Shown here piece by piece: positions 39,207 to 44,242 of a DNA stretch of 64,000 nt. Each line of letters begins with the position of its first letter. Positions within the stretch are counted from its first letter, which is position 1. Position numbers and translations under genes: made by a program. The DNA is from an uncultured Bacteroidota bacterium (GTDB lineage: Bacteria > Bacteroidota > Bacteroidia > Bacteroidales > P3), in assembly GCA_902784865.1 (NCBI GenBank), contig CACZWL010000007.1, positions 1 through 64,000 on the forward strand, given 5' to 3'. A model generated the notes under the pieces. It did not search any database and was not told the DNA's origin. It saw only the letters and a program-made list of their open reading frames with translations.

Positions 39207-39253
39207 CACCGTGAAATTTGAGTAAATTATTAATAATAAAAACAACTAAGACA

Positions 39254-41416
39254 ATGAAAATTCGCACTTTAGCACTCGCACTCGTGCTGGCCGTCGTGGC
39301 CCCCAACGCAGTGCGCGCCGACGAAGGCATGTGGCTTCTCTCGCTCATCGGCAAGAATTATGCCGACATGCAGCGCGCCGGCTTCAAACTCACCCCCGAA
39401 GACATCTACAGCGTCAACCGCAACTGCCTGAAGGACGCCATCGTCGGCCTCGGCAATGCGGGCCAGCCCTTCTGGCATTTCTGCACCGGCGAGATTATCT
39501 CCAAGCAGGGCCTGATGAGCACCAACCACCACTGCGGCTACGGCAAGATCCAGGAGCATTCGACCGTTGAGCACGACTACCTGCGCGACGGTTTCTGGGC
39601 CTACACCATGGACCAGGAGCTTCCCAACCCCGGCCTGACGGCATCGATCCTTGTCCGCATGGAGGACGTCACCGACAAAGTGAAGGAGCACCTGACCGAC
39701 GACATGAGCGAGGCCGACCGCGAGGCCGCCATCGAGAAGGTGAGCGACGACATTGCCAAGAAGGCCGTCGAGGGCACCGTCTACAGCGCCCGCGTGCGCC
39801 CGATGTTCAACGGCAACCAGTTCTTCCTCTTTGTCCACATCATCTACCGCGACGTGCGCCTCGTCGGCGCCCCCCCCTCGTCGATGGGCAAGTTCGGCGG
39901 CGACACCGACAACTGGTCGTGGCCGCGCCACACGTGCGACTTCTCGCTCTTCCGCATCTACACCGCCCCCGACGGCACGCCTGCCGACTACTCGAAGGAC
40001 AACGTCCCCCTCAGCCCCAAGCACCACCTGCCCGTCAACGCCGGCGAGATTAGCGACGGCGACTTCGCCATGGTCATGGGCTTCCCCGGCACGACCGACC
40101 ACTTCCTCACCTCCTATGGCCTCGAGGAGACCATGAACATCACCAACCGTCTGGTCTACGAAATCCGCACCGTCAAGATCGACATCCTGCGCGAGGAGAT
40201 GGCCGCCGACCAGGCCACCCGCATCAAATACGCCTCGAAGTACGCCTCCTGCTCCAACTACTGGAAGTACAGCAACGAGCAGAACAAGGCCCTCCGCAAC
40301 CTCAACACCATGGGCGTCAAGCAAGACGTCGAGAAAGAGTACACCGAGTGGGCACGCCGTCAGCGCTCGCCGAAGTACAGCCGCGCCCTCGACCTCATCC
40401 GCGACGGCTACGCCGCCCGCAGCACCGTCGAGGAAGCCGGCCTCTACCTCCGCGAAGGCATCCTCTCCGGCCCCGAGGCACCGCTCTTCGCCGCCCGCGT
40501 CAGCCGCACCTTCGCCCACATGCTCGGGCAGGACAAGAACGCCGACCTCTCGCCCCTGCAGAACTACATCGACAACTTCTACAAGGACTACGACGAGAAC
40601 GTCGACCGCCGCCTCGTCGCCGGCCTCTTCAAGTACGTCGTCGACAACATGAACGCCGACCTCTGCCCCAAGTTCCTCCTCGACGCCAACAAGAAGTACA
40701 AAGGCAACTTCGACAAGTACGCCGCCGACCTCTACAACAAGTCTGTCTTCGCCAACGCCGAGGCCATGGCCAAATTCATGCAGAAACCCAACGCCAAGAC
40801 CCTCGAGAAAGACCCCCTGGCCGTCGCCGGCACCGAGGCCCTCAACGCCTACATCGCCATGAACGAGCAGGTGCCCCAGCAGGCACAGGACGACCTCACC
40901 CGCGGCATCCGCGACTTCACCGACGGCATACTCCAGATCAACCAGGGCAGAAAACTCATGTCGCCCGACGCCAACAGCACCATCCGCCTCACCTACGGCA
41001 ACGTCATGTCCTACGACCCCAAGGACGGTGTCTCCTACCACTACTACACCACCATGAAGGGTGTCATCGAGAAGGAAGGCCCCGTCGGCGGCGAATTTGA
41101 AGTGCCCACACGCCTCAAAGAACTCTACGCCAAAAAAGACTTCGGCCGCTACACCAACCGCCGCGGCGAACTGCCCACCTGCTTCATCACCAACAACGAC
41201 ATCACCGGCGGCAACAGCGGCTCGCCCGTCATCAACGGCAAGGGCGAACTCATCGGCCTCGCCTTCGACGGCAACAGCGAAGCCATGAGCGGCGACATCG
41301 ACTTCGAAGAGAACCTCCAGCGCTGCATCTGCCTCGACAGCCGCTACATGCTCTGGGTCATCGACGTCTATGCCGGCGCCAGAAACCTCATCGCCGAGAT
41401 GGACATCGTCCGATAA
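39254..41416 (+). CDS. S46-family dipeptidyl-peptidase (DPP7-like)
   Basis: This 720-residue secreted serine peptidase has the signal peptide MKIRTLALALVLAVVAPNAV with cleavage after ARA. The catalytic His is in STNHHCGYG (92/93), the Asp in DTDNWSWPRHTCDFSLF, and the Ser in ITGGNSGSPVING. After the Ser, LIGLAFDG carries Gly where acidic-specific DPP11 carries Arg, so I infer DPP7-like cleavage of dipeptides with hydrophobic P1. It acts in the periplasm and feeds amino acids to an asaccharolytic or protein-using lifestyle. An in-frame ATG at 39218 is rejected because it precedes the signal peptide. Confidence 0.92.
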   Translation: MKIRTLALALVLAVVAPNAVRADEGMWLLSLIGKNYADMQRAGFKLTPEDIYSVNRNCLKDAIVGLGNAGQPFWHFCTGEIISKQGLMSTNHHCGYGKIQEHSTVEHDYLRDGFWAYTMDQELPNPGLTASILVRMEDVTDKVKEHLTDDMSEADREAAIEKVSDDIAKKAVEGTVYSARVRPMFNGNQFFLFVHIIYRDVRLVGAPPSSMGKFGGDTDNWSWPRHTCDFSLFRIYTAPDGTPADYSKDNVPLSPKHHLPVNAGEISDGDFAMVMGFPGTTDHFLTSYGLEETMNITNRLVYEIRTVKIDILREEMAADQATRIKYASKYASCSNYWKYSNEQNKALRNLNTMGVKQDVEKEYTEWARRQRSPKYSRALDLIRDGYAARSTVEEAGLYLREGILSGPEAPLFAARVSRTFAHMLGQDKNADLSPLQNYIDNFYKDYDENVDRRLVAGLFKYVVDNMNADLCPKFLLDANKKYKGNFDKYAADLYNKSVFANAEAMAKFMQKPNAKTLEKDPLAVAGTEALNAYIAMNEQVPQQAQDDLTRGIRDFTDGILQINQGRKLMSPDANSTIRLTYGNVMSYDPKDGVSYHYYTTMKGVIEKEGPVGGEFEVPTRLKELYAKKDFGRYTNRRGELPTCFITNNDITGGNSGSPVINGKGELIGLAFDGNSEAMSGDIDFEENLQRCICLDSRYMLWVIDVYAGARNLIAEMDIVR

Positions 41417-41425
41417 CACCCACCG

Positions 41426-43744
41426 ATGAAACAAGTCCAGCGACAGCAACTGCAGCAGAAATTCTCTCCGCAACAGATACAACTCATGCGTCTGCTGCAG
41501 TTGCCTGTCACTGACCTTGAACAGGCCATCAAGGAGGAGATAGAGAAAAACCCCCTCCTCGAAGCCGAAATGCCCGAGGAAACCACCGACATCGACAACC
41601 TGGCCGCCCCGGACAACAACACCTCCGACTGGGACTCCGACGACGAGGACTTCGGCTACGACTACCGCGAGCACCTCGACAGCGACCCCAACCTACAGCG
41701 CCACGAGTTCATCGTCGCCGACACCGCCTCGGACGCCGACCGTCTGACAGCGCAACTCGTCAGCCGCAACCTCACCGAACGCCAGCAACTCATCGCCTCC
41801 GAACTCATAGGCTCGCTCGACGACGCAGGCTACCTGGGCCGCGACCTCGACCTGCTGGCCAACGACCTAGCCTTCCGGCAAGGCATCGACACCTCGCCCG
41901 ACGAAGTCCTCGACGTCTTGCACATCATCCAAAGCCTCGACCCCCCCGGCATCGGCGCACGCAACCTCCGCGAGTGCCTCCTCCTGCAGCTCCACCGCAT
42001 GCAGCACAACGACAGCGTCAGCACCGCCGAGGCCATCATCGAACACCACTTCGACGACTTCGCCAACCACCGCTACGAGCGCCTCTGCAACGCCCTCGGC
42101 ATCGACGACGACACCCTGCAGCAGGCCGCCGACGTCATCCGCCACCTCAACCCCAAGCCCGGCAGTTCCGACGCCGACAGCGCCCTCGCCGCGCAGACCA
42201 TCACCCCCGACATCGTCCTCCAGCAGCACGACGGGCAGCTCTCCTTCTACGTCAACGACAGCAGCCTGCCGCGCCTCAGCCTAAATACCTACTACACCGA
42301 CATGCTCAGCCAGCTGGAAGCCTCGAAAGGCGACCGCGAGACCCTCCAGTTCCTCCGCACCAAGCAAGCCGACGCGCAAGGCTTCATCGACCTACTGCAG
42401 CAGCGCCACGACACCATCGTCCGCATCATGCGCTACATCCTGCGCCACCAGCGCCAATACCTCCTCACCGGCAACCCCGACCTCCTGCAGCCACTGCGCC
42501 AACGCGAGGTAGCCGAAGCCACAGGCCTCGACATCAGCACCGTCTCGCGCATGGCCAACAGCAAGTTCCTCCAGACCGACTTCGGCACCATACCCCTCAA
42601 GGACTGCTTCTCCAAAGGCATGGCCGTCGACTCCGGCGGCGAAATATCCGTCGAGGCCATCAAGCAACGCCTGGCCGACGCCATCGGCGCCGAAGACAAG
42701 CAGGCGCCCCTCTCCGACGATGCTCTGGCGCGCCTCCTCAACGCACAAGGCTACCCTCTGGCACGTCGCACCGTGGCCAAATACCGCGAGCAGCTGGGAT
42801 TCCCCGTCGCACGCCTCCGCCGCGCACTCATGCTCCTCGTCCTCATGCTCGGCGCCCTGGCTGCCGACGCACAGGTATCCTACTACGACTCCCTCATCTC
42901 CGCACGCCTCGAGAAGCCCAAAAAGGTCGTCACCGTCAAGGCACCGAAACCCGACCCCAAGTCCAAAGGTGCCGCAGCCAAACCCGCCCCCTCCAAGGGC
43001 GCCGAGCCGCGCCAGCCGCAGCTGCCCGCACCTGCCTCCGACGTGGTCGCTCCCGACGCCACGCCCCTCGACCGCGCCATGGTACCCCTCTGGTACGACG
43101 CCTTCCCCCACCACCGCGTCAACCCCCTCGGCCGCACACAGCTCGACATGCTGCCCGACGAGATTATCCTCAAGCTGGCCACCGACTCCGCCGGCTTCTG
43201 CTTCCCCGTCCGCAACCAGAAGACCTCCAACTACGGCTGGCGCTGGCAGCGAGGACACCACGGCGTCGACATAGCCCTCCGTACCGGCGACCCCGTCTAT
43301 GCCGCCTTCAGCGGTATCGTCCGCGTCGCCTCGCCCATGGGCGGCTACGGCAACTGCGTCGTCGTTCGACACCCCAACGGCCTTGAGACCCTCTATGGCC
43401 ACCTCTCCAAAATCAACGTCCGCCCCAATCAGGAGGTATCCGCTGGCGACATCCTCGGCCTCGGCGGCAACACCGGCAACTCCACCGGCCCGCACCTCCA
43501 CTTCGAATGCCGATTCCTATACCAGACCTTCGACCCCGAGTGGATCCTCGACTTCAACAACTTCACCCTCCGCACCCGCCGACTCCACCTCGACAAGACC
43601 TACTTCGGCATCCGCCAGCCCGGCAGCGGCCGCGAGTCGCACCACAAACCCGACGCCAGCCTCATCAAAGAGCCCACCCAGACCAACGGCAAACGCAAAC
43701 AAACCCTCGCGCCTGCGCGTACATTTAATATAAAAGATTTCTGA
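41426..43744 (+). CDS. rpoN: RpoN (sigma-54) joined in frame to a signal-anchor and M23 endopeptidase
   Basis: The open frame is 772 residues. Residues 1-466 are a complete sigma-54: the activator-binding start (FSPQQIQLMRLLQLPVTDLE), the core-binding domain, the helix-turn-helix (EVAEATGLDISTVSRMANSK) and an RpoN box (ARRTVAKYREQLGFP). Directly after VARLRR follows ALMLLVLMLGALAADAQ, a signal-peptide-like helix, and then an M23 peptidase with HHGVDIA (about 611-617) and TGPHLHFE. In relatives these are normally separate proteins. M23 could be translated separately from ATG 42830 (Met469). If translated whole, the product would be a membrane-tethered sigma factor. ribH follows after 3 bases. 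Confidence 0.85.
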   Translation: MKQVQRQQLQQKFSPQQIQLMRLLQLPVTDLEQAIKEEIEKNPLLEAEMPEETTDIDNLAAPDNNTSDWDSDDEDFGYDYREHLDSDPNLQRHEFIVADTASDADRLTAQLVSRNLTERQQLIASELIGSLDDAGYLGRDLDLLANDLAFRQGIDTSPDEVLDVLHIIQSLDPPGIGARNLRECLLLQLHRMQHNDSVSTAEAIIEHHFDDFANHRYERLCNALGIDDDTLQQAADVIRHLNPKPGSSDADSALAAQTITPDIVLQQHDGQLSFYVNDSSLPRLSLNTYYTDMLSQLEASKGDRETLQFLRTKQADAQGFIDLLQQRHDTIVRIMRYILRHQRQYLLTGNPDLLQPLRQREVAEATGLDISTVSRMANSKFLQTDFGTIPLKDCFSKGMAVDSGGEISVEAIKQRLADAIGAEDKQAPLSDDALARLLNAQGYPLARRTVAKYREQLGFPVARLRRALMLLVLMLGALAADAQVSYYDSLISARLEKPKKVVTVKAPKPDPKSKGAAAKPAPSKGAEPRQPQLPAPASDVVAPDATPLDRAMVPLWYDAFPHHRVNPLGRTQLDMLPDEIILKLATDSAGFCFPVRNQKTSNYGWRWQRGHHGVDIALRTGDPVYAAFSGIVRVASPMGGYGNCVVVRHPNGLETLYGHLSKINVRPNQEVSAGDILGLGGNTGNSTGPHLHFECRFLYQTFDPEWILDFNNFTLRTRRLHLDKTYFGIRQPGSGRESHHKPDASLIKEPTQTNGKRKQTLAPARTFNIKDF

Positions 43745-43747
43745 CCC

Positions 43748-44242
43748 ATGAAAAAGACCAACCTCTCCGACTATAACCGCGACCTCATTCCCGACGGCAG
43801 CCCCTGGACCGTGGCCGTCGTCGCCGCCGAGTGGAACCCCGAGGTCACCGACGCCATGCTCGACGGCGCCGTCAGCACCCTCAGCCAGCACGGCGTCCAG
43901 CCCAAGAACATACGCGTCTTCCGCGTCCCCGGCACCTACGAACTCTCCTATGCCGCCGACACCCTGGCCAAGCTCGACAGCATCGATGCCGTCATCTGCA
44001 TCGGCTGCGTCATACAGGGCGAGACGCGCCACTTCGAATTCATCTGCCAGGCTGTCTCCCAAGGCCTCACCAATGTGTCCCTGGTCAACCACAAACCCGT
44101 CATCTTCAGCGTCCTCACCACCGACACCATGGAGCAGGCCCTCGACCGCGCCGGCGGTCGCCATGGCAACAAGGGTATCGAAGGCGCAATCACCGCCCTG
44201 AAGATGCTACAGTTCACCGACCTAGCCGTATCCCAAGCATGA
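43748..44242 (+). CDS. ribH: 6,7-dimethyl-8-ribityllumazine synthase
   Basis: This 164-residue riboflavin-pathway enzyme condenses 5-amino-6-ribitylaminouracil with dihydroxybutanone phosphate. Family marks are VVAAEWNPEVTDAMLDGA, RVPGTYELSYAADTLA, VICIGCVIQGETRHFE and the C-terminal GGRHGNKGIEGA. It starts 3 bases after the RpoN-M23 frame, and its stop overlaps the fmt start by 4 bases (ATGA). Confidence 0.96.
   Translation: MKKTNLSDYNRDLIPDGSPWTVAVVAAEWNPEVTDAMLDGAVSTLSQHGVQPKNIRVFRVPGTYELSYAADTLAKLDSIDAVICIGCVIQGETRHFEFICQAVSQGLTNVSLVNHKPVIFSVLTTDTMEQALDRAGGRHGNKGIEGAITALKMLQFTDLAVSQA

Follow-up and report, generated by a model that had tools for sequence, protein, structure and literature searches.

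Sigma-54 shares one uninterrupted gene with an M23 peptidase in a large genus of rumen Bacteroidales

Rumen Bacteroidales of one large genus encode sigma-54 (RpoN) and a wall-cutting enzyme of peptidase family M23 in a single uninterrupted gene. We describe this gene in a window of 64,000 nucleotides, the whole stretch of DNA analysed, from the genome of an uncultured Bacteroidota bacterium (GCA_902784865.1, contig CACZWL010000007.1), and follow it across related species. Because the RpoN part has no stop codon before M23, sigma-54 is not encoded here as a free cytoplasmic protein. A second, separate RpoN elsewhere in the source genome (G000) was rejected as a candidate, as the search returned no other RpoN match and its four further matches in that genome all fell on the M23 part only.

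A single frame encodes a complete sigma-54 and a complete M23 domain

The frame opens with the ATG at 41426 and runs for 772 codons to its first in-frame stop, a TGA at 43742-43744 (Table 1). Profile searches recovered Sigma54_AID (PF00309, residues 2-46), the core-binding domain (PF04963, 96-290) and the DNA-binding domain (PF04552, 308-466) in that order, all above their cut-offs, and TIGR02395 covered the RpoN part with 406 bits against a cut-off of 277. The Peptidase_M23 match at residues 610-704 extends over the full length of the profile (107.8 bits, cut-off 28.7), and the solved structures that the M23 part matches by sequence are ordinary M23 enzymes. Between the two halves the order is VARLRR (461-466), ALMLLVLMLGALAADA (467-482) and Q483. 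The first-pass annotation of this DNA had seen the frame pass from the end of RpoN, at VARLRR, into a complete M23 domain, and this description stands, with 772 codons free of stops and both domains complete by profile. Its translation of the whole as one protein is likewise the best reading, and a topology with RpoN inside and M23 outside fits it.

We aligned 74 fused proteins, leaving out 12 of the 86 fused loci described below in which a start methionine was absent near the expected place. The RpoN box lies at residues 446-455 (ARRTVAKYRE), and its A446, R447, R448, T449, Y453 and R454 are invariant in 74 of 74. The same holds for H611, D615, H659, H690 and H692 of the M23 part, which, going by the roles known from LytM-type M23 enzymes, we take to be the metal ligands of the HxxxD and HxH motifs and the second catalytic histidine.

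Table 1. Features of the fusion gene and its neighbours, in window coordinates
Feature	Position	Strand	Remarks
RpoN - internal signal - M23, single 772-aa frame	41426..43744	+	stop-free translation
Complete sigma-54 part	41426..42823	+	AID 2-46, core-binding 96-290, DNA-binding domain with RpoN box and basic tail
Signal-peptide-like ALMLLVLMLGALAADA, residues 467-482	42824..42871	+	putative signal peptidase I site after A482, predicted cleavage
In-frame ATG, residue 469	42830..42832	+	downstream of basic residues; not conserved among relatives
Putative mature periplasmic protein	42872..43741	+	SYYDSL motif, variable linker, conserved stretch 556-608, M23 domain
Peptidase_M23 domain, residues 610-704	43253..43537	+	profile search
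Presumed S46-type peptidase gene (named by eye)	39218..41416	+	9 nt upstream of rpoN
ribH-like gene, presumably lumazine synthase (named by eye)	43748..44242	+	downstream of fusion gene

The fusion is a general trait of the genus

A search of the family matched RpoN in 181 of 190 genomes. From the genus of the source genome (g1) we fetched 115 rpoN loci, and in 85 of these RpoN and M23 are fused in frame without a stop, the other 30 being unfused; a script called a locus fused when the RpoN frame ran through the M23 match. The fused frame is kept at RpoN identities down to 37%. As a control, we placed M23 relative to RpoN in the 28 unfused loci of the genus that have an M23 match, where it was spread 10/8/10 across the three frames. 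Since the fusion is present in 85 of 115 congeneric loci, chance or error is excluded. The comparison with the rpoN end of relatives that the first-pass annotation had proposed thus returned the same stop-free frame, and the sequencing error it had offered as an alternative was not borne out. The fusion is a trait of the genus, general there, and no error. Among the named loci, the titles of fused ones include samples of rumen, reticulum, omasum, colon and rectum, with sheep, goat, deer and yak as hosts.

Outside g1, one of the 24 loci examined was fused. It belongs to G204, a genome of another genus of the same family (g34), and makes up the total of 86 fused loci with the 85 of g1. Among the 11 g34 genomes searched, G204 is the only one to match through both halves; nine have RpoN and M23 apart, and one is without an RpoN match. 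We also considered the fusion as a Bacteroidota-wide trait, which wider draws did not support: in 149 genomes of the order, 142 of them matching at 1e-30, the other listed RpoN open frames measure at most 594 aa, and in 148 genomes of the phylum, 147 of them matching at 1e-40, they measure at most 642 aa, the 642-aa frame being that of G385. Excluded from these comparisons were four g1 genomes without an RpoN match, the locus of G138, whose RpoN match was weak, and, from the tree described below, L133 of G126. At L133 the rpoN match stops at residue 378 and the frame is broken, by damage or assembly error.

No signature of internal initiation at the junction

The fused frame could be read in another way, namely that M23 with its own signal starts within the rpoN tail, at the ATG at 42830 in the source gene and at GTG or TTG in relatives, with read-through being minor or its product degraded. 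Codons that could serve such internal initiation are common, with 83 of 86 fused loci holding an in-frame ATG, GTG or TTG within the stretch of the junction that was searched, and 77 of 86 holding one that keeps the basic residues. ATG itself is present in 45 of the 86 and absent from 41, and the same stretch of unfused congeners, where a start codon has no use, holds one in 24 of 28. The codon for the tail valine also speaks for internal initiation, being GTG in 48 of 67 cases when 36.8 would be expected from each gene's own usage; a conserved internal GTG at this valine was nevertheless rejected, with GTG in 48 of 67 valines and other residues at the position in 15 of 82 tails. In the source gene the tail valine is GTC, and the sole ATG of the searched stretch comes downstream of the basic residues. 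The first-pass annotation had proposed that M23 might start at 42830 with a basic N-region supplied by the RpoN tail, but the ATG comes after those residues, and as a conserved start it fails with 41 of 86 fused loci lacking any in-frame ATG in the searched stretch and no start-site signature.

The composition and predicted structure of the junction were compared with those of other sites. The 30 nt before the hydrophobic core have a GC fraction of 0.70, partly forced by arginine codons, an A fraction of 0.12 and an MFE of -7.4 (n=85), compared with 0.41, 0.35 and -2.3 at the start of rpoN itself (n=74). In unfused M23 frames the 30 nt ahead of the first ATG give 0.40, 0.34 and -1.1 (n=24), a control that is only approximate, since non-ATG starts seem common in the genus; cut to the 20 frames in which a basic residue closely follows the ATG, four of them doubtful by eye, it gives 0.39, 0.37 and -0.9. 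The 30 nt before the tail valine (0.58, 0.25 and -4.6) resemble random places in rpoN (0.58, 0.25 and -4.5, n=425). Non-ATG starts look common because a suitable ATG is absent from 11 of the 28 unfused M23 frames, three of which have none, while in eight the first one, as judged by eye, falls within or beyond the hydrophobic stretch; one further frame has it far upstream, and 16 have an ATG with a basic start. This feature of the genus also counts in favour of internal initiation. Entropy at fourfold sites (45 rows) gave values of 1.45 and 1.63 at the junction, with no dip there, and 0.86 over rpoN codons 1-20 (7 columns), where there is a dip.

The junction is without marks of an internal translation start. 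Given that neither a signature in composition or structure nor synonymous-site constraint is present, that no start position is common to the fused loci, and that RpoN would in any case still be without a stop of its own, we consider internal initiation unlikely and hold with moderate confidence that the main product is one polypeptide.

A probable cleavable signal peptide at the junction

In all 86 fused loci the junction is built of the basic tail of RpoN, a hydrophobic core and [AGS]-Q, with [AGS]-Q falling 14-19 residues from the start of the core in 76 of the 86; a lipobox was found at none of the 86 junctions. The best hydrophobic 12-residue segment of the junction scores between 1.95 and 3.43, and the remainder of each RpoN has a median of 1.42 and a maximum of 2.07; the difference is partly by construction, as the core was defined as the most hydrophobic segment of the junction. 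A hydrophobic core followed by [AGS]-Q is the pattern of signal-peptidase-I signals in Bacteroidota. Against the reading as one exported polypeptide stands the position of the signal, since Sec export seldom uses one that comes only after 466 residues. Because the stretch is short and [AGS]-Q is present in 86 of 86 loci, it is probably a signal peptide that can be cleaved and not a permanent anchor, and we infer that the M23 part is exported to the periplasm via this internal, signal-like segment. A gene for a site-2 protease of family M50 was found in 12 of the 13 genomes searched, the source genome among them.

The first-pass annotation had called the segment a signal-anchor. The hydrophobic segment is real, but a lasting anchor looks less likely for the two reasons just given, and both also weigh against a lasting tether, in which an uncut fusion would hold sigma-54 at the inner membrane with M23 outside and the state of the wall would control its release. 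The single frame and the topology agree with such a tether, and membrane-bound transcription regulators of the CadC/ToxR type exist. On the other hand, sigma-54 has many promoters to reach, and the catalytic residues are kept, so M23 looks like an enzyme and not a mere sensor. We therefore regard a permanently tethered sigma-54 as improbable, and the cleavable signal is the reading carried forward below.

Origin of the fusion

In all nine outgroup family loci with an M23 match in the fetched stretch, the stop codon of RpoN is separated from the first ATG of the M23 frame by 602-709 nt. At L231 (G202) the interval between rpoN and M23 holds a hydrophobic 215-aa frame, the last 209 residues of which gave no Pfam match. 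Unfused loci of g1 have M23 downstream on the same strand in 28 of 30 cases, mostly directly behind rpoN, where RpoN ends for example in VGRLRKEL and a stop; in most fused loci the hydrophobic core begins within a few residues of RLRR or RLRK. From these arrangements we infer that the fusion arose via loss of an intervening gene, followed by loss of the RpoN stop. With that stop lost, RpoN's own basic tail would have become the basic end of the signal. In three loci scored as unfused (L113, L114 and L122) the M23 frame has no ATG at all, and in L114 and L122 it reads AVIGRLRRVV, like an RpoN tail, though RpoN has its own stop there.

On an RpoN tree of 138 rows the fused or unfused label needs six changes, and starred branches force at least three of them; on a careful tree of 46 of these rows it needs five (bootstrap 3-5), with two forced by starred branches. 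Because of these numbers, losses or repeated gains of the fusion inside g1 are likely, and a single origin within the genus is unsupported by the RpoN trees. At two loci, L037 (G012) and L137 (G082), M23 is absent and rpoN is kept, with a ribH-like frame also after it. In the RpoN trees they share a clade with the fused G085, G087 and G117, and they are possible reversals of the fusion.

These patterns bear on whether the linkage does anything. It could be a tolerated accident, loss of the RpoN stop being neutral, the two halves being processed or working anyway, and the linkage bringing nothing. The genes adjoin in most unfused congeners, leaving few steps to fusion, and G012 and G082, nested near fused loci, have no M23 part, which indicates that RpoN can manage alone. 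Yet the fusion extends across many deep branches (85 of 115 loci) and appears again in one g34 genome, and its signal and catalytic features are conserved, making an accident without function a very improbable account. An artefact of assembly or sequencing has next to no standing, for although the named relatives are metagenome-assembled genomes, the same frame recurs in 85 of the 115 loci fetched and in 42 of the 52 named ones (a set that overlaps the unnamed loci and so is not independent), under the titles of several isolate series (RUG, UBA, RGIG and others).

Predicted sigma-54 targets and the activator

The source genome has 10 consensus -24/-12 sites against none in the reversed control, and seven of the 10 have a same-strand gene start within 130 nt downstream. 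With genes named by eye, these sites (L234-L243) lie close upstream of secA and of genes for a DegP/HtrA-type protease, ClpC, thioredoxin, a small membrane protein, an antiporter-like protein and a DedA-like protein. A strict pattern applied to 16 other genomes returned 50 sites, compared with 19 in the reversed control, and several genomes showed no excess. Of these 50, 17 lie in G015 (two in its control), far above the other members, and its sigma-54 regulon may be expanded. ClpC (in three genomes), HtpG, Lon, DnaK, GroES, SecA, Hsp20-like and RodA/FtsW-like genes stand behind some of the 50 sites, and many have no clear gene behind them.

We examined the promoters of seven genes seen behind these sites in a panel of 13 genomes together with the earlier loci. 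Of 68 upstream regions, five being duplicates, 50 had a site scoring at least 18 within 260 nt, against 10 reversed and nine on the opposite strand. For a relaxed pattern within 200 nt, 81 loci were given, of which 13 had no gene match and the rest collapsed to 62 gene-genome pairs; 42 of the 62 carried a site, against one reversed and none on the opposite strand, although 11 of the 42 are discovery sites, the genes having been picked for strict sites, and without those the count is 31 of 51. By gene, relaxed sites were found for dnaK in 12 of 12, htpG in 11 of 12, clpC in seven of eight, groES in six of nine and lon in one of one. The chaperone promoters are present in unfused species too and are therefore independent of the fusion. 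Relaxed sites before secA were found in three of seven fused and none of five unfused species (12 genomes, non-independent), and before htrA in two of six fused and none of two unfused; near-consensus sites outside the relaxed pattern precede secA in G028 and htrA in G001 and G022, three genomes with the fusion. The first-pass annotation had suggested a direct route from cell-wall state to transcription; the predicted targets point to protein folding and, in some species, to export, and the difference in secA promoters between fused and unfused species points towards the export-coupling hypothesis considered below.

The set of activators is small: each of the 25 g1 genomes searched has one strong match to PF00158 (E <1e-60), the sigma-54 activator, that of the source genome lying at G000:C14:56564-57076. 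In G008 the activator (L226:4154-5347) comprises, by Pfam, an AAA+ domain and a Fis-type HTH and is without a receiver domain, and by eye its gene sits between dnaG-like and aroA-like genes. Autoregulation of rpoN by sigma-54 was rejected, as sites showed no clear excess, 6 of 136 upstream regions scoring at least 18 against three in the reversed control. In the 250 nt before the hydrophobic core, 38 of 86 fused loci have sigma-54-like sites compared with six in the reversed control; the best of these are off-consensus, several lie in conserved tail codons, and the excess is probably codon bias of the conserved tail.

Proposed mechanism

The reading that we favour, and consider reasonably probable, is that the gene yields one polypeptide, that an internal, cleavable signal exports M23, and that RpoN is left with a membrane tail, either to be removed or to serve as a tether. 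Ribosomes starting at 41426 find no stop until 43742 in the stop-free frame and would thus make an RpoN-M23 polypeptide. RpoN would fold in the cytoplasm, the RLRR basic tail and the hydrophobic stretch would serve as an internal signal sequence that takes M23 through the Sec translocon, and signal peptidase I would probably cut after [AGS] and before Q, setting the M23 enzyme free in the periplasm. RpoN would remain with its hydrophobic tail in the membrane, and a site-2 protease of the RseP type could remove this tail and free the sigma factor. Since one polypeptide would be cut in two, the single gene would fix the ratio of sigma factor to exported wall hydrolase, and RpoN would pass through a stage of attachment to the membrane.

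A more speculative extension, to which we give limited credence, is that RpoN-M23 acts as a proteostasis sigma factor coupled to export, in which the amount of free sigma-54 would be set by the success or failure of export; it would be the bacterial equivalent of ATFS-1, built into a sigma factor. As long as Sec works, each new RpoN would be drawn to the membrane by its M23 passenger and handled there. Once export or folding falters, uncut RpoN would stay in the cytoplasm, bind RNA polymerase and raise dnaK, groES, htpG and clpC, with secA and htrA joining them in some of the fused species.

If true, promoter choice would be coupled physically to protein export by the fusion of a sigma factor to an exported enzyme, and a master stress regulator would be placed as the front half of an exported protein. 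To our knowledge, sensors of folding or export stress are little known in the phylum Bacteroidota. Many fused and unfused sister species within one genus amount to a natural experiment, and the fusion makes the sensing of such stress testable, given the sigma-54-driven chaperone genes reported for Bacteroidota in an earlier survey (PMC12316311).

Comparison with known systems

Processed polyproteins and membrane-held regulators are known kinds of protein. We know of no description of an exported enzyme whose cytoplasmic half is a sigma factor, and among the open-access titles and beginnings of abstracts returned by literature searches none concerned a sigma-54 fused to M23 or held at the membrane. 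The Bacteroidota sigma-54 survey reports GroEL, GroES, GrpE, DnaJ, DnaK, HSP90 and ATP-dependent proteases as enriched targets, in agreement with the promoters found here, and the chaperone-target part of our results is therefore not new; in the main text of that survey the words M23, fusion and secA are absent (PMC12316311).

Signal peptidase (the likely site-1 protease) and then RasP (site-2) are reported to destroy RsiV, so that sigma-V becomes active in an envelope response (PMC9044953). Signal peptidase and a site-2 protease freeing a sigma factor would be shared with the fusion, but the protein cut there, RsiV, is an anti-sigma factor, whereas in the fusion it would be the sigma factor that is bound to the membrane.

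The one-component regulators CadC and ToxR, CadC with a periplasmic C-terminal domain, and pro-sigma-K are likewise transcription regulators held at the membrane; they differ in involving neither sigma-54 nor an exported enzyme. Two further cases for comparison are ATFS-1 of C. elegans (PMC7817664), whose import reports on the transport machinery, and SecM (PMC10951299), which regulates SecA and whose export does the same. In both, a protein's own import or export senses the machinery, as the fusion may do by hypothesis; neither involves a sigma factor, and they act by import failure (ATFS-1) or ribosome arrest (SecM).

Closer in gene structure are polyproteins of the fbcH type, in which cytochrome b and c1 of Bradyrhizobium are encoded by one gene and signal peptidase splits the product at an internal signal. 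The RpoN-M23 gene would share with fbcH the plan of one gene, two proteins and an internal signal, with cleavage here predicted; both halves of fbcH are subunits of a membrane enzyme, whereas the first half here is a cytoplasmic sigma factor. Finally, the unfused rpoN and M23 pair of the same genus and family has the same RpoN and the same M23 family, downstream on the same strand, and differs in that the two are separate genes, with M23 in any frame within the genus and beyond a gap of several hundred nucleotides in the outgroup.
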